Part shown: in pieces, positions 2,352 through 10,400 of the stretch
Numbering within the stretch: position 1 is the first letter of the stretch
Layout of the letters: each line of letters opens with the position of its first letter
NCBI RefSeq assembly: GCF_003058225.1
Contig: NZ_QBUG01000001.1
Span: 62,001-126,000, forward strand
From: Promicromonospora sp. AC04
Lineage (GTDB): Bacteria > Actinomycetota > Actinomycetes > Actinomycetales > Cellulomonadaceae
Length of the DNA: 64,000 nt
Direction of reading: 5' to 3'
Translations under genes and position numbers: made by a program
Notes under the pieces: model-generated
Told to the model about the DNA's origin: nothing
Databases searched by the model: none
Seen by the model: only the letters and a program-made list of their open reading frames with translations

Positions 2352-2426
2352 CTCAGCGCCGCCGGCTCAGCGCCGCCGGCTCAGCACCGTCGGCTCAGCA
2401 CCGCCGGCTCAGCACCGCCGGCTCAG
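2352..2426. repeat. 14-bp tandem repeat, five units
   Basis: Five head-to-tail copies of ctcagcgccgccgg or ctcagcaccgccgg (period 14, with ctcag at 2352, 2366, 2380, 2394, 2408) and a sixth partial copy at 2422. The TGA stop of the LLM gene lies in the last ctcag, so the array starts right at the end of the coding region and fills the gap to the GNAT gene. Confidence 0.9.
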
Positions 2427-3760
2427 AACGCGCGCAGGTTGGCCCGCAGCCCGCCGTCGGCCCACTCCGTGCGGAGGATGCCGCGGCGGCGCAGGATCGG
2501 GACCAGCTCGTCGAGGGTGCGGTGCACGGTGACCGGGTGCAGGTCGCCCCACAGCAGCACGCCGTCGTTGCCCCACTCCCCCAGCTCCTCGATCAGGTCG
2601 GCCAGCTCGCCGGCCGTGCCGACCCAGCCCGAGCGGTCGGCGATCCGGCCGAGACGAGCGAGGCCACCGAGCAGCCCGCGCAGCGGTGTGGTGGCGAGGT
2701 CGTGGTCGCCAACCAGCCGCCGGATCGAGCCGTGCGAGACGTGGTCGCCGAACAGCCCCGTGGGCAGCGGCTTGTCGAGGTCGAGCGCCGTCAGGTCGGT
2801 CTCCAGGTCGCTCGACTGCTGCTCGGCGATCCGCAGCAGCGTGGCGTCGTCCGGGTTCGCGGACCCGGCCACCAGCCGGTCCGCCTCCTCGGGGCTCGAC
2901 ACGAGCACCGGCTTGATCGCGAACAGGACCTTCACGTGGTCGAGCGCCCGCCCGGCCGCGCGGGCCGCCGCGTGGACCTTGGCCCGGTGGTCGCGCACGC
3001 TCCGCTCGGTCAGCGGCGCGAGCGCGAGCTGGACGTCGCTGTTCGCCCCGGCGAACGCCAGCCCCCGGCCCGACCCGCCGGGCGAGACGATCACGGGCTC
3101 GCCGCCCGAGCCGTCGTCGAACGGGAGGGCGTTGAGCGGGCCGTCGAACGCGTAGTGCTCGCCCCGGTGCCGCACCGGGCGCAGCAGGCTCCCGTCGACG
3201 TACCGGCCGCCGACCCCGTCGGTGCCCGGGTCGGCGATGAGCGCACCGTCGTCCCAGGACCGCCACAGCGAGCGGACGCCGTCGAGCCACTCCTCGGCGC
3301 GGTCGTACGCGACGTCGTGCCCCAGCGGGGGCGCGGCGGAGAAGTGGCGGGCGCTGCCCGTGTCGGTCACGAGGTTGAGCCCGAGCCGGCCGCCCGACAG
3401 GTGCTGGAGCGTCGCGAGCTGCCGCGCCCCGGTGTACGGCAGCACGGCGGCCGGGTTCACGGTGGGCACGACGCCGAGGTGCCGCGTGGCGGCGAACAGG
3501 TACGGGGCCAGCAGCAGCGGGTCGTGCTTGGGGCCGCCGAACGCCTGCCGCACGCGCAGGTCGATCGTCTCGGGGTTCCCGAGCGAGGGCGCGTCCTCGA
3601 TGATCAGGAGGTCGACGCCCGCCTGCTCCAGCGCGCGGGCGGACTCGACGTAGAGGTCGGGCCGGGTCCAGTCGTAGTTCCAGTCCAGGTAGTCGTGGCC
3701 CCAGCCGTGCGGCCCGAAGCCGCGGGCCAGGAACCAGCCCAGGTGCTGCTGGCGGGTCAT
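2423..3760 (-). CDS. LLM-class flavin-dependent monooxygenase (NtaA/SnaA/DszA-like)
   Basis: 445 residues, starting MTRQQHLGWFLARGFGPHGW. This is a full-length member of the bacterial-luciferase-like TIM-barrel monooxygenases: an N-terminal barrel strand, the LLIIEDAPS segment, and AFGGPKHDPLLLAPYLFAAT followed by LGVVPTVNP, as in the nitrilotriacetate/pristinamycin/dibenzothiophene-sulfone monooxygenase group. It needs reduced FMN. Its ATG overlaps the stop of the metY-like gene by 4 bases (ATGA), so the two are translationally coupled. The neighbours (sulfhydrylase, rhodanese, another LLM enzyme) and the SAM-IV leader suggest release of sulfur from an organosulfur compound such as an alkylsulfonate or sulfone. 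The exact substrate is not visible. Confidence 0.88.
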   Translation of the reverse strand: MTRQQHLGWFLARGFGPHGWGHDYLDWNYDWTRPDLYVESARALEQAGVDLLIIEDAPSLGNPETIDLRVRQAFGGPKHDPLLLAPYLFAATRHLGVVPTVNPAAVLPYTGARQLATLQHLSGGRLGLNLVTDTGSARHFSAAPPLGHDVAYDRAEEWLDGVRSLWRSWDDGALIADPGTDGVGGRYVDGSLLRPVRHRGEHYAFDGPLNALPFDDGSGGEPVIVSPGGSGRGLAFAGANSDVQLALAPLTERSVRDHRAKVHAAARAAGRALDHVKVLFAIKPVLVSSPEEADRLVAGSANPDDATLLRIAEQQSSDLETDLTALDLDKPLPTGLFGDHVSHGSIRRLVGDHDLATTPLRGLLGGLARLGRIADRSGWVGTAGELADLIEELGEWGNDGVLLWGDLHPVTVHRTLDELVPILRRRGILRTEWADGGLRANLRAF

Positions 3761-5124
3761 GGTGTCTCCTTGCGTGCGGTGCCGACGGGCGTGGTGCCGA
3801 CGGGTGCGGCGCCGACGGCGGCCCTGCGAACCGCCGCGAGCGCCCGCTCGAGGTCCGCGATCAGGTCGGGCAGGTCCTCGACGCCGATCGACAGCCGCAG
3901 GGTGCCCGGGTGGACGCCGGCGGCGGCCCGCTCGGCGGGGGTGCGCAGCACGTGGCTCGTGCTCTCGGGGTGCAGCACGAGCGAGCGGACGTCGCCGATG
4001 TGGGTCATGTGCGTGAAGACCTGGACGGCCTCGACGAAGGCCCGGGCCGCGGGGGCGCCGTCGTGCAGGGTGAAGGTGAAGACGGAGCCCTGGCCGTCGG
4101 GCAGGTAGCGCTTGGCCAGGGCGTGCGACGGGCTCGAGTCGAGCCCGGAGTAGTCCACCGATGCCACCTCCTGCCGGAACGCCAGCCACCGCGCGACCTC
4201 CAGCGCCGACGCGCTCTGCCGCGCCACCCGCAGCGACAGGGTCTCGATGCCCTGCCCCACGAGGAACGCGTTCAGCGGGGACGGCGTCGGACCGAACCGC
4301 GGCGCCACGGTCTCGCGCAGGTACGCCAGGCGTGCCCGCCCGCCGTGCCGTTCGGCCAGGCTGGGCCCGCCGGTGCGCGACGGCGCCACCAGGTGCGGGT
4401 ACAGCGCGCCGGCGGCCTGGGGATCGAACGTCCCGGAGTCGACGACGACGCCGCCCAGCACCGAGCCGTGACCCGCCAGGAACTTGCTGGCGGAGTGCAC
4501 CACGACGTCGGCCCCGTGCTCGATCGGGCGCAGCAGGTACGGCGTGGCGAGCGTGTTGTCCACGACGAGCGCCAGCCCGTGGGCGTGCGCGACGTCGGCC
4601 ACGGCGGCGAGGTCGGGCAGGTCGTTGCGCGCGTTCGGGATGGACTCCAGGAACAGCACGCGGGTCTCGGGCCGGATCGCGCGCTCCCACGCGGCCGGGT
4701 CGGTGGCGTCGTCGACGAAGTCGGCCTCGATGCCCAGCCGGGGCAGGTTCTCCAGGAGCAGCCCGCGCGTGCCCTCGTACAGGCTGGCGGCGGCGAGCAC
4801 GCGCTGCCCGGCCGCGACCAGGCCGAGCAGGGCGACCGTGACGGCCGCCTGCCCGCTGGCCACGAACAGGGCGTCCGCGCCGCCTTCGAGCGCGGCGATC
4901 CGCTGCTCGACGGCGGCGGTGGTCGGGTTGCCGGTGCGCGTGTAGGCGAACCCCTCCCCGGCGCCGAAGTGGCCGCCGGCCTGCTCCCACTCCTCGAACT
5001 CGAACCCTGCCGTCAGGTAGACCGGCGTCGCGCGCGGTATCACGCGGCCCGACGGCGCGGCGCCGTGCGGACCGCCGTCGCGCCCGGGATCCCCGTGCAC
5101 CTGCCGGGTGGCGAACCCGGTCAT
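3757..5124 (-). CDS. metY: O-acetylhomoserine/O-acetylserine sulfhydrylase, MetY type (PLP-dependent)
   Basis: 455 residues of the Cys/Met-metabolism PLP-dependent family (fold type I). TRQVHGD and YLTAGFEFE at the start, YTRTGNPTTAAVEQRIAALE near residue 70, and HSASKFLAGHG with the PLP-binding lysine near residue 215 are characteristic. The enzyme would make homocysteine (or cysteine) from an O-acetylated amino acid and sulfide. The start MTGFATRQVHG is chosen because its ATG overlaps the rhodanese stop by 4 bases. The 3' end overlaps the next gene by 4 bases. A SAM-IV riboswitch upstream of the operon fits a methionine-pathway gene. A cystathionine gamma-synthase-like activity is possible, but the length and the RTGNPT motif favour MetY. 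Confidence 0.88.
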   Translation of the reverse strand: MTGFATRQVHGDPGRDGGPHGAAPSGRVIPRATPVYLTAGFEFEEWEQAGGHFGAGEGFAYTRTGNPTTAAVEQRIAALEGGADALFVASGQAAVTVALLGLVAAGQRVLAAASLYEGTRGLLLENLPRLGIEADFVDDATDPAAWERAIRPETRVLFLESIPNARNDLPDLAAVADVAHAHGLALVVDNTLATPYLLRPIEHGADVVVHSASKFLAGHGSVLGGVVVDSGTFDPQAAGALYPHLVAPSRTGGPSLAERHGGRARLAYLRETVAPRFGPTPSPLNAFLVGQGIETLSLRVARQSASALEVARWLAFRQEVASVDYSGLDSSPSHALAKRYLPDGQGSVFTFTLHDGAPAARAFVEAVQVFTHMTHIGDVRSLVLHPESTSHVLRTPAERAAAGVHPGTLRLSIGVEDLPDLIADLERALAAVRRAAVGAAPVGTTPVGTARKETP

Positions 5125-5474
5125 GGCGCGGGGCTCGGCTCGGCCTCGGTCGCGGGCAGCCCGGCCTCCTTCCAGGCGGGGAACCCGCCGTCGACGTGCG
5201 AGACGTCGGTGTAGCCGCGCGCGGCGAGCGCCTCGGCGACCGGGCCGGAACCGTTGACCGAGCCGCACACGATCACGACGGGCGTGTCGAGCTTGATCGC
5301 GGGGTTGTCGGACGGCCCGAACAGCGCGTCGAGGTTGTCGCGGTCCGCGAGGGTGGCGCCGGGTATCTCGCCCGACGACGCCCGGCCCGCTGCCGAGCGG
5401 ACGTCGATCAGCAGGGCGCCGCCGGCGACCTTGGCGCCCGCGGTCTCGGGGGTCTGCAGCTCAGGGGTGGTCAT
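5121..5474 (-). CDS. Rhodanese-like sulfurtransferase, single domain
   Basis: 117 residues. One rhodanese domain: LLIDVRSAAG (about 21-30), the conserved GEIPGA, then the active-site loop VIVCGSVNGS with Cys70, and the closing HVDGGFPAWKEAGLP. Cys70 would carry a persulfide, moving sulfane sulfur between donors and acceptors in the cytoplasm. A good ribosome binding site (GAGGGAGA) precedes the ATG. It lies 73 bases after the LLM gene and overlaps metY by 4 bases, so it is the second structural gene of the SAM/cysteine-controlled operon. It could process sulfite or sulfide released by the monooxygenases (inference). Confidence 0.9.
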   Translation of the reverse strand: MTTPELQTPETAGAKVAGGALLIDVRSAAGRASSGEIPGATLADRDNLDALFGPSDNPAIKLDTPVVIVCGSVNGSGPVAEALAARGYTDVSHVDGGFPAWKEAGLPATEAEPSPAP

Positions 5475-5547
5475 GATGTTCTCCCTCGGGATTGGTGTGC
5501 TGTCTGGATGCGGTGCTGCGCGGACGGGGCTGCGCGGACGGGGTTCG

Positions 5548-6711
5548 TCAGGCGCTCAGGAGCCGGCCCGTCGGCAGCGCCCGGGACTCGGTCTCGACGT
5601 CGGACAGCCCGAGCGAGCCCCGCAGCGTCGTCGCCGACCGCTCGGTGCGGTACAGGCCGGCGTGCTGGAGGGCGGGCACGAGGTGGTCGGTGATCGTGTC
5701 GAGGTCCGAGCTGAGCGAGGACGGCTGCAGCAGGAACCCGTCGACGGCGCCGACCCCGGTCCAGTCCGCGATGAGAGTCGCCAGCTCGTTCGGCGTGTCG
5801 GCGACGACGAGCCCGCCGCCCATGGACTCCCTGCCCTCGAGCGCCTCGACGAGCTCCAGCCGCGCCCGGGCGCTGGCCCGCTCGGCCGCGAGCACCACGT
5901 AGGCCTCGGCGAGCACGCGCACGTCCTCGGGATCGCGCCCGGCGGACAGGGCCGAGTCCCGCACGAGCCGGCGCAGCCGGACCGCGTGCGCGGCGTCGGT
6001 CACGGCGATCCGCGCGATGTCGGCGGTGCGTCCGGCCAGCGCGGCACTGGCATCGGAGCGCACGCGCACGACTACCGGCGGGGGCACCTGAGGCAGCGTG
6101 TCGCCGCCGCCGGCCGGGCGGCCGCGGACGGCGAAGCGGATGCCGTCGTGGTCGACGCGGAACCGGCCCTCAGCGTCGAGCTCGACCGCCCCGGACCCGG
6201 TGCCGGGCCGGCCGGTCCAGACCTGGGTCACGGACCGGATGCCCAGCTCGACGCGGGCGGCCCACGCCTCGTCGGGCTCGGGGAGCGTGCCCTGCCGGAC
6301 GGCCTGCCAGCCGGCCCGGCCGCTGCTCGCCCGGTCGATGCTGCTCAGGGCGACGGCGGCGTGGGCCGCCTCGACGTGCACGGTGTCGACGGCGGCCACG
6401 AGGCCGACTCCGGCCGTGACCCGCGCGGCGCGGGCAGCTGCGACGGCCGTGTCGAGCCGGCCGGTCACCTGGCTGCGCCCGGGGTGGAGCAGGAAACCCT
6501 CGTCGAGGCTGACGAAGTCGAGCAGGCCGCGGTCGGCGGTCCGCACCAGGTGGAGGAAGCGCTCGCCGTCGAACGGCCGGGGCGCGACCGGGCCGCGGGC
6601 ACGGTGGGCGCCCGGTCGGGCGCCGGCGGAGGTGAGGTCCACCCCGAGCACGACGGGACGGGACAGGGGGCCGGTGGAGGAGAGGGACGTGGGCTGCGAC
6701 GGGTACGGCAC
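5548..6711 (-). CDS. LLM-class flavin-dependent monooxygenase
   Basis: 387 residues from the GTG at 6711, chosen because CGGAG stands 7 bases before it and because the family usually begins only about 20 residues before RPVVLGVDLT. An upstream GTG at 6774 would add 21 residues. It shows the TIM-barrel layout of LLM monooxygenases: FLHLVRTADRGLLDFVSLDE, RVTAGVGLVAAVDTVHVEAA, and the C-terminal GVGAVDGFLLQPS segment shared with the gene at 1-492. The SRTNLVV-like flavin segment is less clear than in the 2423-3760 gene. It is the first structural gene after the riboswitch and cysteine-rich leader ORF. The likely role is oxidation of a sulfur compound (inference from context). Confidence 0.82.
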   Translation of the reverse strand: MPYPSQPTSLSSTGPLSRPVVLGVDLTSAGARPGAHRARGPVAPRPFDGERFLHLVRTADRGLLDFVSLDEGFLLHPGRSQVTGRLDTAVAAARAARVTAGVGLVAAVDTVHVEAAHAAVALSSIDRASSGRAGWQAVRQGTLPEPDEAWAARVELGIRSVTQVWTGRPGTGSGAVELDAEGRFRVDHDGIRFAVRGRPAGGGDTLPQVPPPVVVRVRSDASAALAGRTADIARIAVTDAAHAVRLRRLVRDSALSAGRDPEDVRVLAEAYVVLAAERASARARLELVEALEGRESMGGGLVVADTPNELATLIADWTGVGAVDGFLLQPSSLSSDLDTITDHLVPALQHAGLYRTERSATTLRGSLGLSDVETESRALPTGRLLSA

Positions 6712-6898
6712 GGCGGGGCTCCGTTCGAGCTGCGGCTGCGCGACGACGCCCGGAGGACCCGGCCGGCGGCGCACCGATGGTGCGCGACGGCGTTCATGGG
6801 TCGCCCGGGGGCGTGGCTGCCGGGGGCAGGCGAGAGACGTCCGGTCAGGAACGTGAGGGCCGGGTTCGGCCGGGGCTCGGCACGTGACGCCGAGGTGT

Positions 6899-6915
6899 GG
6901 TCCGAGTGGCGGACC
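6899..6915 (-). promoter_or_regulatory. Short hairpin after the leader ORF (possible attenuator element)
   Basis: On the plus strand ggtccg at 6899-6904 pairs with cggacc at 6910-6915, with a 5-base loop. It lies 36 bases past the stop of the cysteine-rich leader ORF, inside a G+C-rich leader of about 240 bases before the LLM gene. A role in attenuation is inference. Confidence 0.3.
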
Positions 6916-6950
6916 GGGCAGGGCCGGTCAGCGGGTCGGGTCTGCCGCTG

Positions 6951-7064
6951 TCAGCGACAGGAACAGTGACAACACATGCCTTCGCGCGGGGCAGCACCAA
7001 CCCGCGCGGAGACGTTCCAGGACGGCAGGGACACGTGGACGGCGGGGGCAGCGCTCCGGGTCAT
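6951..7064 (-). CDS. Cysteine-rich leader peptide (putative attenuator uORF)
   Basis: 37 residues, beginning MTRSAAPAVHV and ending REGMCCHCSCR before TGA. Four of the last seven residues are cysteine (TGT TGT CAC TGT TCC TGT CGC). The ATG has a strong Shine-Dalgarno (GGTGAGGAGAACGACG), so it is very probably translated. It lies between a SAM-IV riboswitch and the first gene of a sulfur operon. Short ORFs with polycysteine tracts are known in mycobacteria as cysteine-responsive attenuators, where slow translation at Cys codons changes downstream expression. That this ORF works the same way is inference; ORF, ribosome binding site and Cys tract are seen directly. A shorter version, MCCHCSCR, could also start in frame at 6977. 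Confidence 0.8.
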   Translation of the reverse strand: MTRSAAPAVHVSLPSWNVSARVGAAPREGMCCHCSCR

Positions 7065-7081
7065 CGTCGTTCTCCTCACCT

Positions 7082-7099
7082 GCTCGCCCATCGGCGAGC
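7082..7099 (-). promoter_or_regulatory. Hairpin next to leader-ORF ribosome binding site (putative riboswitch expression platform)
   Basis: In the transcript GCTCGCC, a 4-base loop and GGCGAGC form a 7 bp stem. It follows the SAM-IV aptamer and ends just before the GGTGAGGAG ribosome binding site of the cysteine-rich ORF. It could couple aptamer state to translation of that ORF (inference). Confidence 0.45.
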
Positions 7100-7107
7100 G
7101 ACGCGTG

Positions 7108-7212
7108 TTGTCATCCGCCGGACGGCGGCCGACCTGGTCCTCACCCGGGGCACCCACCCGCGCGGGGGGTTGCCGTCCGACCAGCCGGGGCTTTGCGTCG
7201 GAGCTCATGACC
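7108..7212 (-). ncRNA. SAM-IV riboswitch aptamer
   Basis: Read on the minus strand from 7212, the segment matches the SAM-IV consensus as I know it: ggtcatgag, then caaagccccggct, the joining segment ggcaaccccccgcg, then gggtgccccgggtga and gaccaggtcg, followed by a small ccgcc/ggcgg hairpin. SAM-IV RNAs are found in Actinomycetota upstream of methionine and sulfur genes and repress when S-adenosylmethionine is abundant. It lies downstream of a good promoter and upstream of an LLM-rhodanese-metY-LLM operon, the expected genomic setting. The 3' boundary is approximate. A covariance-model search (Rfam SAM-IV) would settle it. Confidence 0.9.
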
Positions 7213-7233
7213 TGCCGAGGCTTTCTACACCTT

Positions 7234-7243
7234 TCCGATCGGA
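7234..7243. promoter_or_regulatory. Palindrome tccgatcgga between promoter and riboswitch (possible operator)
   Basis: A perfect 10 bp palindrome, about 22-31 bases after the predicted transcription start of the sulfur operon. It could be the site of a repressor acting on top of the riboswitch. No regulator is assigned. Confidence 0.3.
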
Positions 7244-7270
7244 TAAGTGCGGTTGATCTCGATGTCACAG

Positions 7271-7299
7271 AAGATACGAATGGAACCCATCGAAGTCAA
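7271..7299 (-). promoter_or_regulatory. Sigma70-type promoter of the sulfur operon
   Basis: On the minus strand TTGACT (7299-7294) and TATCTT (7276-7271) are separated by exactly 17 bases. The predicted start near 7264 puts the SAM-IV aptamer about 50 bases into the transcript. It is in a local A/T-richer pocket, unlike its surroundings. Confidence 0.7.
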
Positions 7300-7384
7300 T
7301 AATCTTTGCCCGGATCTCACATACCGGAACAACGTCTCGCTACGGAACGCCGGGCCGCGCCGCATGCCTCCAGGAAGACAGTTG

Positions 7385-7445
7385 GCGAGCGGAGTGTGTT
7401 GCGCTGCGTAGACGTTGTCTACGCAGCGCAACACACTCCGCTCGC
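7385..7445. terminator. Perfect 29-bp-arm palindrome (terminator of mannosidase operon)
   Basis: Arms 7385-7413 and 7417-7445 are perfectly complementary with a 3-base loop (gtt). It lies 39 bases after the stop of the GH92 gene and upstream of the sulfur operon promoter. No T tract follows, so it would be an I-shaped actinobacterial terminator. Confidence 0.75.
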
Positions 7446-7483
7446 GCATCCGTTCTCCGGCGGGCGCCCCGACCCGACGGCGT

Positions 7484-10400
7484 TTAGCTCGCGAGCAGTT
7501 CCACCTGCGCGAGGACGCCTTCGTCGAGCAGCTCCAGGCGGAGGCCCGTCAACGGGGCGGGCTCGTCGAGCACGAACGGCCGCAGCTGGCCCGGCCACGG
7601 CCAGTGCTCGCCGGTGCGCTCGTCGAGCACACGCCCGTCGTCCGTGACCAGGCGCCACGCCGACGGCGGCCGGCCCTCGCCCGCAGCCGACGACGTCAGC
7701 GTGTAGGCGCGGAGCGCGGCACCTGGCGGAACTTCGTCGGAGGGCCGCCACTCGAGCGAACCGGTCACCTCGACCGACGTCGTCAGGTCGCCGTCCGTCA
7801 GGCGCGGCAGGGGTCCACGGGCGCCGTGCCAGCTGCCGTCGGCCCGCTGCCACGGACCTGCGGGCGCCACGTCAGAATCGCCCGACGACGGCACGCCCCA
7901 GCGCGTCGGCGTCCCGGACAGGGCGAACCGCAGGGCCGCTCCCCCGACCAGGTCGCGATTGTCGATCGACGGCGTGGTGACGGCTCGGACGGCGGCCGCA
8001 TCGGCACCCGCGCCGTCACCCGCACCGCCCGACACGTCGAGGCCCGCCACGTACCAGTGGTCTGCAGCGCCCGGCGCCTCGATCACGAGGTCGCCGTCGG
8101 GGCGGTGCACCACCGTCCGCTCGAAGAGCGGCGAGGTGACCGCCCAGCGCGGCGACCCGATCTCCAGGGGGTACAGGCCGAGGGCCGAGAGGACGTACCA
8201 GGCCGACATCTCGCCGTTGTCCTCGTCGCCGTGGTAGCCCTGCCCGATCTCGTTGCCGGTCCACAGCCGCGCCAGGATCTCGCGGACGGTCTCCTGCGTG
8301 CGGTCCGGCCGCCCGGCGAACAGCCACGCGTACGGGATGTGGTGCGACACCTGGTTGGACTGCCCGAGCTGGCCCAGCCGCACGTCGCGCGCCTCGAACA
8401 TCTCGTGGATCGCGGACCCGTAGGTCCCGGGCTTGTCCGCCCGCTCGGGGGTGGCGAAGAACCGGTCGAGCAGCCGCTCCAGCCCGTCGGGGCCGCCGTG
8501 CAGCCTGGCCAGGCCTGCGCCGTCGTGCACAGGGTGGAACAGGAAGTTCCAGGCGTCGGACTCGGTGTAGTCGCCGCCCCACTCGTCCGGGTCGAACGCC
8601 GCGGCGTCCGGCCCCGTGGCGTCCGACCCCGCGACGGCGGCGGCCCCCGACCCGAACGCCCCGTCCCGGCCGCGCCCCCGGAAGAACCCCGTCTCCGGGT
8701 CGAAGAGGTGCACGTACCCGAGCGCGCTCTGCCGGAGGTAGGCGGCCTCGTCCCGCAGCTGGCGCCGTCGGCCGTCCGGCGTGCCGGGCGCGTCCGCGAG
8801 CGCCTCGGCCATGCGCGCCAGCCCGGCGTCGTTGATGTAGCCCTCGAGGCTCCAGGACACCGACTCCTCGACGTCGCGCGGCACCCAGCCGTTCGTGAGC
8901 GCGAAGTCCTGGCCCTTGCGGCCCACGCCGGACCGGGTGGGCAGGGCGGTGGCGTTGCGCAGCCCGGCGTCGTAGGTGGCCAGCGGGTCGGGCAGGTCCA
9001 CGCCGCGCAGGTACAGGTCGGCGAACGCGACGTCGGACGACGTGCCGGTCATCAGGTCCGCGTAACCCGGCGACGACCACCGGGCGACCCAGCCGCCCTC
9101 GCGGTACTGCTGCACGAACCCGTCCGCGAGCCGCGCCGCGACCTCCGGGTAGAGCAGAGCGTAGGCCGGCCAGCAGGTGCGGTAGGTGTCCCAGAACCCG
9201 TGGTTCACGAACATCTCGCCGGGTACGACGGGCGCGCCGTCGAGCACGGGCGAGGCGTGCACGGGCGCGCCGTCGGCCCCCACCTCCGTGTAGGAGGACG
9301 GGTACAGGTTCAGACGGTAGAGGTTCGACCAGAGCGTGACCTGCTGCTCCTCGGTGGCGCCCTCGACGTCGAGCACGCCGAGGCGCTCCTCCCACTGCGC
9401 GCGGGCGCGCTCGGCGACCTCGTCGAAGGTCCCGGCCGCCTCCCGCTCCAGGGCCCGCCAGGCGAGGTCCTCGCTGATGTACGACGTCGCCACGCGCACC
9501 TCGACCGTGCGGCCCGCCTCCGCGTCGGGTCCAGCCGTCGTGTCAGGCCCAGCATCAGGTCCAGCGGCGGGCCTTTCCACGGGGTCGAGCGCCACGGTCG
9601 CGTAGGTGGCGTGGTCCCGCCCGCGGGCGCGGCCCGTGCGCAGCACCGGGCGGGAGATCCGGCCCACCACGTACATGCGGCTGCGGCCCACCGACAGCGC
9701 GCTGCCGTGATCGCTCCAGCCGGTGAACGTGCCGTCGTCGTGCACCGTCACGGCCACGGGCGCGCCGTCGGCGCCGGTGTCGCTCACGGCGTCGATCAGC
9801 AGATGGCCCGTCGCGGCCCCGGGCGGGAAGGTGAAGCGCAGGACGCCGCCGTGGTCGGACGCCGCGACGGCAACGCGGGCGCCGCCGTCCAGGTCCACGG
9901 TGTACAGGTGCGGCCGGGCGATCTCGTCGTCGTGCGAGAACCCGATCGCGCGGGCCGCCAGGGCCGCGTCGGGGACGTCCTCGCCGCCGGCGGTAACGGT
10001 GGAGCCGTCGCCGGAGCCGCCCCCGGAGTCGACGCCGGATCCGCCGTCAGCCCGCGCCGGGACCAGGTGGAACGCGAGCTGGTCGCGGTCCCCCATCCAG
10101 GGGCTCGGCTCGTGCGAGATGCCGACGCCCTGCAGGCGCGGCCGGTTGTCCGGCCCGTTGTGGGCGGCCCACGAGTACAGCCAGCGGTCCGACGACGCGT
10201 CGGTCAGCGGCACCCACATCGTGAACCCGTTCGGCACCGCCGCCGCGGGCACCGTGTTCCCGCGCGAGTACGCGCTGGAGGAATGGGTGCCCCGCCGGGT
10301 GTCCACGAGGTCGGTGCGGCCGGTGATCGCGCGCGCCTGGCGCGGCCCGACCGTCACGGCGTCGAGCCACACCTCGCTGCGCCCGCCGTGCGGCGGTGCG

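Follow-up and report, generated by a model that had tools for sequence, protein, structure and literature searches.

A SAM-IV riboswitch placed before a cysteine-codon leader open reading frame at a sulfur operon of Promicromonospora and related actinobacteria

In Promicromonospora sp. AC04, an operon of sulfur genes is preceded by an S-adenosylmethionine (SAM) riboswitch of the SAM-IV type and, behind it, by a short leader open reading frame (ORF) with cysteine codons among its last codons. The locus lies in a 64-kb stretch of DNA (the window, i.e., the whole stretch that was analyzed) and raises the question of why two putative sensors would be stacked before one operon and which start site the riboswitch would act on. 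The original prediction for this DNA was that the leader integrates SAM and cysteine supply in series, with the riboswitch possibly gating translation of the sensor ORF. Both modules stand in series in the window and are kept together at 61 loci of its family; the architecture is well supported, and the switching we infer. The reading that we favor, by a small degree, is a two-input RNA regulator in series, in which SAM-IV would govern initiation of a cysteine-sensing leader, with the output NOT SAM AND NOT Cys.

The window elements are read on the minus strand, from 7299 to 6951. A scan of 6600-7520 returned a single sigma-70-like promoter (shuffled sequences gave a mean of 0.0, with a standard deviation of 0.2) at 7299-7271, consisting of a -35 element TTGACT (7299-7294), a 17-nucleotide (nt) spacer, and a -10 element TATCTT (7276-7271). 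Behind it, cmscan placed a full-length SAM-IV aptamer at 7212-7100 (Rfam RF00634, model positions 1-116; 89.1 bits, gathering score 38), which is the only Rfam family reaching its gathering score in the window; no T box was found there. The 3' tail of the aptamer, CAACACGCG, is presumably the strand that pairs with the P3 loop in the SAM-IV pseudoknot. A 7-bp hairpin at 7099-7082 (GCTCGCC, 7099-7093; GGCGAGC, 7088-7082) follows and directly abuts the Shine-Dalgarno (SD) site of the leader ORF (AGGTGAGGAG; 7081-7072). The ORF, of 37 codons, runs from the ATG at 7064 to the TGA at 6951 and encodes the peptide MTRSAAPAVHVSLPSWNVSARVGAAPREGMCCHCSCR, which ends in MCCHCSCR; its four Cys codons, all TGT, lie between 6974 and 6957. 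As in cysteine leaders, this is a short ORF with Cys codons near the stop upstream of sulfur genes, and its SD-led start behind an aptamer, where the regulated gene would otherwise begin, is also the arrangement of a riboswitch-controlled upstream ORF (uORF). The first operon gene encodes a luciferase-like monooxygenase (LLM1) and is separated from the leader by a 239-nt spacer (6950-6712) that is C-rich and G-poor (C, 48%; G, 30%).

The promoter, the SAM-IV core, the hairpin beside a strong ribosome binding site, the 37-codon ORF, and the gene order LLM monooxygenase-rhodanese-metY-LLM monooxygenase had all been named in the original prediction and were recovered here, the riboswitch by covariance search, the hairpin on sequence, and the ORF by translation; a GNAT gene (2316-1798), unlisted there, is additional. 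The cysteine tract was confirmed in part: Cys codons stand among the last codons, often as Cys-Arg-stop, and do not form an uninterrupted polycysteine tract. The genome (6.85 Mb) contains a second SAM-IV copy elsewhere, directly before a gene (L001; SufS-like by translation) that has no leader. Just upstream of the promoter lies a perfect inverted repeat (29-nt arms, 3-nt loop; 7385-7445), where the scan reported no terminator-like site with a T run and which was the source of spurious miRNA matches in the Rfam scan.

Within the genus, 13 genomes were searched and 26 SAM-IV places were listed, eight of which are of the window type; the leader ORF is present in all eight. The LLM1 search gave the same division, with a match in each of these eight genomes and no match in the remaining five. 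Behind SAM-IV at 13 further genus loci (L001 and L003-L014), no such leader was found, and five places where the script gave no core (L015, L022, L023, L025, and L026) are outside that leader count. In the genus alignment, the aptamer, hairpin arms, SD, and first codons hardly vary, and the promoter varies more; the aptamer ranks with the best conserved DNA, the leader SD AGGTGAGGAG is identical across all eight loci, and the -35 core TTGAC is unchanged in 8/8. Length differences inside the ORF (9, 3, 15, and 12 nt) are all multiples of three, and the peptide tails vary (MCCHCSCR, MCCRCSCR, MSCRRSCR, MCCR, and CSAPGCCR). Like leader peptides occur in the named species P. thailandica, P. sukumoe, P. 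kroppenstedtii, and P. citrea. Leader-type SAM-IV copies of the genus score 80 to 89 bits, versus 97 to 109 bits for the copies at SufS-like genes. At L011, a Cys-containing ORF begins inside the aptamer without an SD and was not counted as a leader.

The same arrangement recurs in the window's family. Among 220 family genomes, 85 matched LLM1, and upstream DNA was taken from 87 places, one per gene, excluding the second pieces of split matches and an LLM1 fragment of genome G004 (the SAM-IV and leader of which are L020). SAM-IV was detected by pattern first, with Rfam then applied to the 36 pattern-missed places and used as a check on the 51 pattern-found ones. SAM-IV and a short SD-led ORF occupy the same place in 61/87 upstream regions, with Rfam confirming SAM-IV in every one (73.6 to 100.2 bits); these paired loci are spread over 12 of the 25 family genera, in counts that are uncorrected for relatedness (a single genus contributes 28 of the 61). 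LLM1 itself sits in the leader slot behind SAM-IV at four loci (L065, L068, and L071 by Rfam; L070 by pattern and eye, as Rfam did not report it at the gathering score and its P2 region has an insert), and a Cys-tailed short ORF without SAM-IV in front was seen at 11/87. The other 11 places had neither module or were unjudgeable (L082, L087, L093, L104, L115, L117, L138-L140, L142, and L143) and include partial or low-identity matches and one cut at a contig end (L087); the SAM-IV matches at L129 and L143, which face away from LLM1, were left uncounted. To judge from these sequences, the two modules are separable, and either half can be lost or bypassed. Loss of the ORF or of its Cys codons at a retained riboswitch, which would have spoken against the original prediction, was confined to 4 of the 65 SAM-IV loci, and the relatives that it called for, with SAM-IV followed by a short Cys-ended ORF, exist at the 61 LLM1 loci and also in Geodermatophilaceae and Janibacter (see below).

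The leader takes the place that a regulated gene would otherwise have. Measured from the SAM-IV core, the leader starts of 48 loci fall at +55 to +83 nt, and genes behind other SAM-IV copies begin similarly, at +49 to +96. Among 30 high-scoring family loci with such other copies (L027-L056), no such leader was found in 28; in this set, L038 and L045 gave the script no core, and L041 and L042 gave it no SD-led ORF.

Three side observations concern these family loci. In genus g24, SAM-IV is followed either by LLM1 directly (L065, L068, L070, and L071) or by an 11-codon leader (MRRSQTRCCCR and MYRSQCRCCCR, each before the stop; L069 and L072), so that this genus offers a naturally occurring comparison for testing what the leader does. 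In genus g16 (L088, L091, L094, L096, L097, and L098), leaders ending in CCxxGRPVVPGRVCC precede LLM1 with no SAM-IV upstream. At L068, L073, L108, L130, L131, and L133, a second SAM-IV lies on the opposite strand a few hundred nucleotides from that of LLM1, suggesting a second regulated unit back to back with the first.

The leader peptides of the 61 loci have 11 to 50 residues and, by eye, little in common besides the Cys(-Arg) end. Cys occurs within the last 4 residues of 58 peptides and within the last 10 of all 61, 56 of which have at least two Cys there. When the DNA behind the start codon was dinucleotide shuffled (100 rounds), Cys fell in the last four residues of 10% of the closing frames (maximum, 26%), with only about 31 of the 61 shuffled frames closing within the stretch. 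Counts of codons and tails were made on 69 leaders of distinct DNA (61 with SAM-IV and 8 without; L111, L112, and L121 are not included). The leader frame contains 243 Cys codons among 2,210, versus 96 and 38 in the other two frames, and 194 of these are TGT and 49 TGC (80% TGT), with TGT equaling or outnumbering TGC in each of the 12 genera. The bias is reversed elsewhere, with TGT/TGC counts of 6 versus 61 in 23 gene-like ORFs of the window and 17 versus 162 in 37 SufS-like family genes. A sensor that works through codons might well use a minor Cys codon where it senses; selection on the peptide does not account for the TGT preference, which is a property at the codon level.

Beyond the family, contigs of GTDB genomes were scanned for a SAM-IV core followed at about 130 to 190 nt by TGTCGCTGA; because the pattern requires this ending, leaders with other endings are missed. 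Of the 53 stretches returned, 38 were judged true (SAM-IV, SD, and an ORF ending in CR before the stop) and 15 were chance matches, many of them in other phyla. The true stretches comprise 17 from Promicromonospora, Cellulomonas, Oerskovia, Puerhibacterium, and a related metagenome-assembled genome, 19 from Geodermatophilaceae (Geodermatophilus, Klenkia, Modestobacter, Blastococcus, Goekera, Trujillonella, and one family-level genome), and 2 from Janibacter. Promicromonospora and Janibacter belong to two families of Micrococcales and Geodermatophilus to Geodermatophilales. Rfam confirmed SAM-IV in all 21 stretches tested (84.6 to 108.7 bits), and the remaining 17 rest on the script pattern; the Janibacter leader-type copies reach 107 to 109 bits. 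Geodermatophilaceae and Janibacter leaders mostly end in DLLRTDSALCR, DLVRTDSALCR, or HVDLLRVNSALCR. The Janibacter leader comes close to NF042934, one of the NCBI putative leader peptide families (26.4 bits; cut-off, 27), and two Geodermatophilaceae leaders match it weakly (18 bits); seven of the 10 other leaders scanned, six of them from the window's family, have no NCBIfam match. The window leader has none at E values up to 1, and thus none to NF042936 or NF042934.

The next open frame is LLM1-like in 16 of the 17 family scan matches, with none found for L263. For most Geodermatophilaceae, the next-frame script picked wrong frames and was not used; behind the leader of Geodermatophilus ruber, the next open frame looks LLM1-like. 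Downstream of its leader, Modestobacter sp. Leaf380 has a GNAT gene (37% identity to that of the window over 150 residues), ABC permease- and ATPase-like frames read from translations, and a family 3 solute-binding protein. SAM-IV occurs twice in this stretch (L262), on different strands and with about 7 kb between the copies (553-664 and 7238-7350); one precedes the leader and GNAT, and the second shares its strand with a SufS-like gene. In Modestobacter altitudinis (L269), the leader is frameshifted relative to its relatives. One locus of a further family (L206) has SAM-IV (110 bits), a leader that begins MAQAQ and ends in TGTCCMCMCLCTMA, and an LLM-like gene. Other SAM-IV copies in the order mostly stand directly before metY-, metX-, or SufS-like genes, as read from translations.

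Between the aptamer tail and the leader start, a hairpin is retained in the family while its sequence changes. The best stem has a 3' arm that ends 12 to 23 nt before the start in 67 of 69 distinct sequences; the stems comprise 41 different ones, with a mean score of 17.2 versus 12.4 in shuffles (highest shuffle mean, 13.4), and 21/69 reach p<0.05 singly. At L070, a similar hairpin precedes LLM1. The SAM-IV tail at SufS-like genes is mostly GCGCGG(GG) and can pair with a downstream C run; in leader-type loci, it is mostly (G)ACGCG and does not overlap the hairpin. On the other side of the leader, the spacer has more C than G in all 64 loci for which an LLM1 start was identified (mean C, 0.51; mean G, 0.29), some of the starts being script guesses and 5 of the 69 leaders, without a recognized LLM1 start, being left out. 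For comparison, the 180 nt before the leader have C and G at 0.35 and 0.36 and the first 240 nt of LLM1 at 0.46 and 0.31. The window spacer (6712-6950) is a candidate Rho loading region; no unusual stability was found for the leader-to-LLM1 RNA (fold z-score, -0.78). A GAACGGA-like motif precedes the LLM1 start in many genera (6725-6711 in the window), replacing the usual GGAGG.

For the reading favored above, we infer that SAM would control leader initiation, that ribosomes would stall in a cysteine-dependent manner, and that a Rho step may follow. SAM-IV would decide whether ribosomes may start on the leader ORF, which would sense charged tRNA-Cys through its terminal Cys codons. At high SAM, the leader would stay untranslated and the operon off. 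At low SAM with ample cysteine, ribosomes would reach the leader stop and leave, exposing C-rich RNA, and either transcription would end through Rho or the weak LLM1 start site would stay closed. When SAM and cysteine are both low, ribosomes would wait on the terminal Cys codons and keep the downstream operon on. Because these codons are terminal, a ribosome paused on them would also cover the stop codon and the nucleotides immediately downstream. Rho exclusion is known for tna, and such coverage of the stop codon would fit it; translation attenuation, as cited for Mycobacterium smegmatis, may be an alternative at the leader-to-operon step. Since an untranslated leader would mean an inactive operon under either scheme, a riboswitch that closes the leader would give NOT SAM AND NOT Cys without extra parts.

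Several results weigh against this reading. Gating of the sensor ORF by the riboswitch agrees with the position of the leader and with the natural swaps that place LLM1 in its slot at four loci, but no conserved anti-SD was found for the leader (mean, 9.98 versus 9.67 shuffled; 48 distinct leader-type sequences). None was found behind other SAM-IV copies either (13.7 versus 13.5 shuffled; 31 sequences), so this test may lack power; our guess for how SAM might close the leader is a steric one, with the folded aptamer and hairpin lying close to the SD. Pairing of the P3 loop with the tail averages 14.0, versus 13.4 with swapped partners (maximum, 14.7) and 13.4 in shuffles (maximum, 14.5), with complementary stretches visible in many loci. 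A higher C than G content, weaker than in the spacer, also marks LLM1 coding DNA, which makes the Rho step a weak part of the scheme. Cys stands farther from the stop in 2 of the 61 leaders (L100 and L137), the single-Cys leaders of Geodermatophilaceae (ending in ALCR) would be an unproven kind of cysteine sensor, and Met and Cys codons alternate in the leaders of L134, L135, L136, L141, and L206 (e.g., RMCMCMSTC, VMCMACMPC, and CCMCMCLC), suggesting from L134, L135, and L206 that methionine may be sensed too. Outside the family, no such leader was found at 65 of 66 SAM-IV places, L206 being the exception, in a sample of 26 places and 40 of 80 further ones, all drawn from the best-scoring copies, in which 9 places had no core or no SD-led ORF by script; the five LLM1 relatives of other families (L153-L155, L157, and L158) have no SAM-IV core by pattern.

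An attenuator hairpin at the leader stop codon was also considered and rejected as a general part of the system. In the window, its arms are CTGTCGC and GCGGCAG (6960-6942), and its loop contains the stop codon. The pairing, scored on 62 distinct sequences, averages 13.7 versus 13.3 with arms swapped between loci; it exceeds shuffled arms (12.1; none of 200 rounds reaches 13.7). The hairpin is clear in part of Promicromonospora and some other genera, and its stem or a GCGACAG form occurs in four of the seven genus sequences tested. As a side observation, the leaders with alternating Met and Cys codons resemble the metL leader of Streptomyces lividans (RCMCRRMCAF before the stop), which lies before metNIQ and is described as methionine dependent in the accessible part of PMC8079986.

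The failure to find an anti-SD for the leader SD would also suit two modules that act as parallel regulators, with the riboswitch ending or permitting transcription directly (e.g., through Rho at or after the aptamer) and the leader separately opening the LLM1 start. The halves do exist alone, at 11 loci with a leader but no riboswitch and 4 with a riboswitch but no leader, and PMC13236596, in the part available, cites translation attenuation of cysteine genes in M. smegmatis. However, the leader starts where the genes behind other SAM-IV copies start, the scan found no intrinsic terminator (0 terminator-like sites in 6600-7520), and the leader tail shows no family-wide pairing with the RNA just behind it, in a test that did not include pairing with the LLM1 start. 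We regard parallel action as unlikely, if a contender to be taken seriously.

It is far less probable that the ORF encodes a small functional protein (e.g., a metal- or thiol-binding peptide) in which the Cys matter as residues. Retention of a Cys-containing C-terminal end would suit such a protein, but peptides that range from 11 to 50 residues and differ strongly between genera by eye would not, nor would the single Cys retained at several loci or a preference for TGT over TGC, which acts on codons and not on protein. We give as little credence to a decayed or neutral riboswitch that leaves regulation to the cysteine leader alone: leader-type copies do score lower than those at SufS-like genes (80 to 89 versus 97 to 109 bits in the genus; 74 to 100 bits in the family), and SAM-IV has been lost at some loci, yet each of the 61 clears the gathering score of 38 by a wide margin, the Janibacter leader-type copies score 107 to 109 bits, and the aptamer's place among the best conserved DNA of the genus alignment does not suggest decay.

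The operon itself is consistent with a role in sulfur shortage. All of its genes lie on the minus strand, beginning with LLM1 (5548-6711), a luciferase-like (flavin mononucleotide) monooxygenase without Cys (PF00296; TIGR03860 below its cut-off). A rhodanese-domain protein (5121-5474; PF00581) follows, and then a metY-type O-acetylhomoserine/O-acetylserine sulfhydrylase without Cys (3757-5124), called from NF005872 and TIGR01326 at E values below 1e-130 that are still under the curated cut-offs. By domain and PDB comparison, the next gene encodes a second luciferase-like monooxygenase, LLM2 (2423-3760), which has no Cys and no Met after the start and whose nearest solved structures are BdsA (5tlc) and YtnJ (1yw1). 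A GNAT acetyltransferase (1798-2316; domain match) is possibly the last gene. In LLM1, rhodanese, metY, and LLM2 (2423-6711), Cys and Met make up 3 of 1,404 residues, start codons apart, versus 29.6 expected (p, 5e-10) from 20 other gene-like ORFs of the window, at least one of which also holds none; across 23 LLM1 orthologues, there are two Cys codons. Such sulfur-poor proteins fit expression under sulfur starvation. Bacillus subtilis has clusters that combine an acetyltransferase with an FMN monooxygenase and a deacetylase and that salvage cysteine from its S-modified forms, according to the accessible part of PMC12757645. The window unit is partly alike (monooxygenases and GNAT) and adds metY; a deacetylase was not looked for. 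The operon probably serves to take sulfur from organosulfur compounds, S-alkyl-cysteine-like ones or others, the substrate being our guess, and to feed methionine synthesis.

Two repeats accompany its distal end. A tandem repeat of about five 14-nt units (GCTCAGCACCGCCG; 2338-2426) stands directly behind LLM2, between it and GNAT. Farther on lies a perfect palindrome with 28-nt arms and no loop (1683-1738; beginning CGGCAGTTTGCATCGAGG), beside which there is a related 16-nt inverted pair (1660-1675/1725-1740).

If the favored reading is true, the locus is a naturally occurring logic gate made of RNA, with two inputs and with a riboswitch that acts on a ribosome-based amino acid sensor, and the arrangement probably restricts sulfur scavenging to a joint shortage of methionine/SAM and cysteine. 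It might even be a general and modular actinobacterial device, found in at least three families and two orders, in which SAM-IV licenses a cysteine-codon sensor ORF as an AND-NOT gate at one ribosome start; this extension is tentative, and we doubt it slightly more than we believe it. The natural variants (riboswitch only, leader only, or both, with leaders down to 11 codons) make the mechanism testable by module swaps. The locus also marks short SD-led ORFs behind riboswitches as likely to be regulatory, and for some genes assumed to be under direct SAM-IV control, the control may run through a sensor ORF.

Precedents exist, taken singly, for cysteine leaders, for riboswitches controlling uORFs, and for a predicted combined logic of SAM and tRNA-Met T boxes. 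No description of SAM-IV placed in series with a cysteine leader was found among the open-license PMC literature matches listed; the accessible parts of PMC2965389 and PMC12452182 contain nothing on the combination, and the phrase "leader peptide" is absent from PMC9481103 and PMC12452182. Actinobacterial cysteine leaders with Cys codons near the stop, before sulfur genes and with a regulation mode then unknown, were described by Seliverstov et al. in 2005 (PMC1262725), who, in the part available, proposed Rho exclusion and found no conserved structure or terminator in Mycobacterium leaders; Shell et al. in 2015 (PMC4633059) described mycobacterial cysteine-leader ORFs. As far as these excerpts go, those leaders have no riboswitch in front, unlike the SAM-IV-preceded window ORF (PMC1262725 and PMC4633059). 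They share with it the Cys codons near the stop, the sulfur genes downstream, the lack of a conserved terminator hairpin, and the proposals of Rho or translation attenuation, again within the available text. The cysteine-responsive uORFs of mycobacteria are reportedly leaderless, as a title by Canestrari et al. from 2020 has it; in contrast to such leaderless polycysteine uORFs, the window ORF has a 5' leader with an aptamer and a strong SD.

Riboswitches followed by a small ORF are represented by Mbox-rv1805A (PMC12810186) and the B12 riboswitches of metE and ppe2 (PMC11260477) of Mycobacterium tuberculosis, for which the accessible text proposes Rho. There, as proposed here, translation of the small ORF matters for the downstream gene or is controlled with it; from what these partial sources say, the small ORFs are not sensors of a second metabolite, whereas the window ORF is a putative cysteine sensor. 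For tandem SAM riboswitches and T boxes for tRNA-Met, a review available in part (PMC9481103) gives a predicted NOT A AND B logic. Such tandems, in that account, likewise combine a SAM off switch with a signal of amino acid starvation in one leader, but their second input is a T-box RNA that binds uncharged tRNA-Met and not an ORF with Cys codons. At the simple end, SAM-IV precedes a single gene, the cysteine desulfurase of S. lividans (PMC8079986, seen in part). There and at L001 and L003-L014, so far as described, the aptamer family is the same and the distance to the next start similar, but, unlike in the window, no leader ORF lies between the riboswitch and the gene. The mgtA leader of Salmonella combines Mg2+ sensing with the proline-codon ORF mgtL. 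It resembles the window leader in joining a metabolite-responsive leader RNA to a codon-based sensor ORF and differs from it in ligand, amino acid, and organisms.

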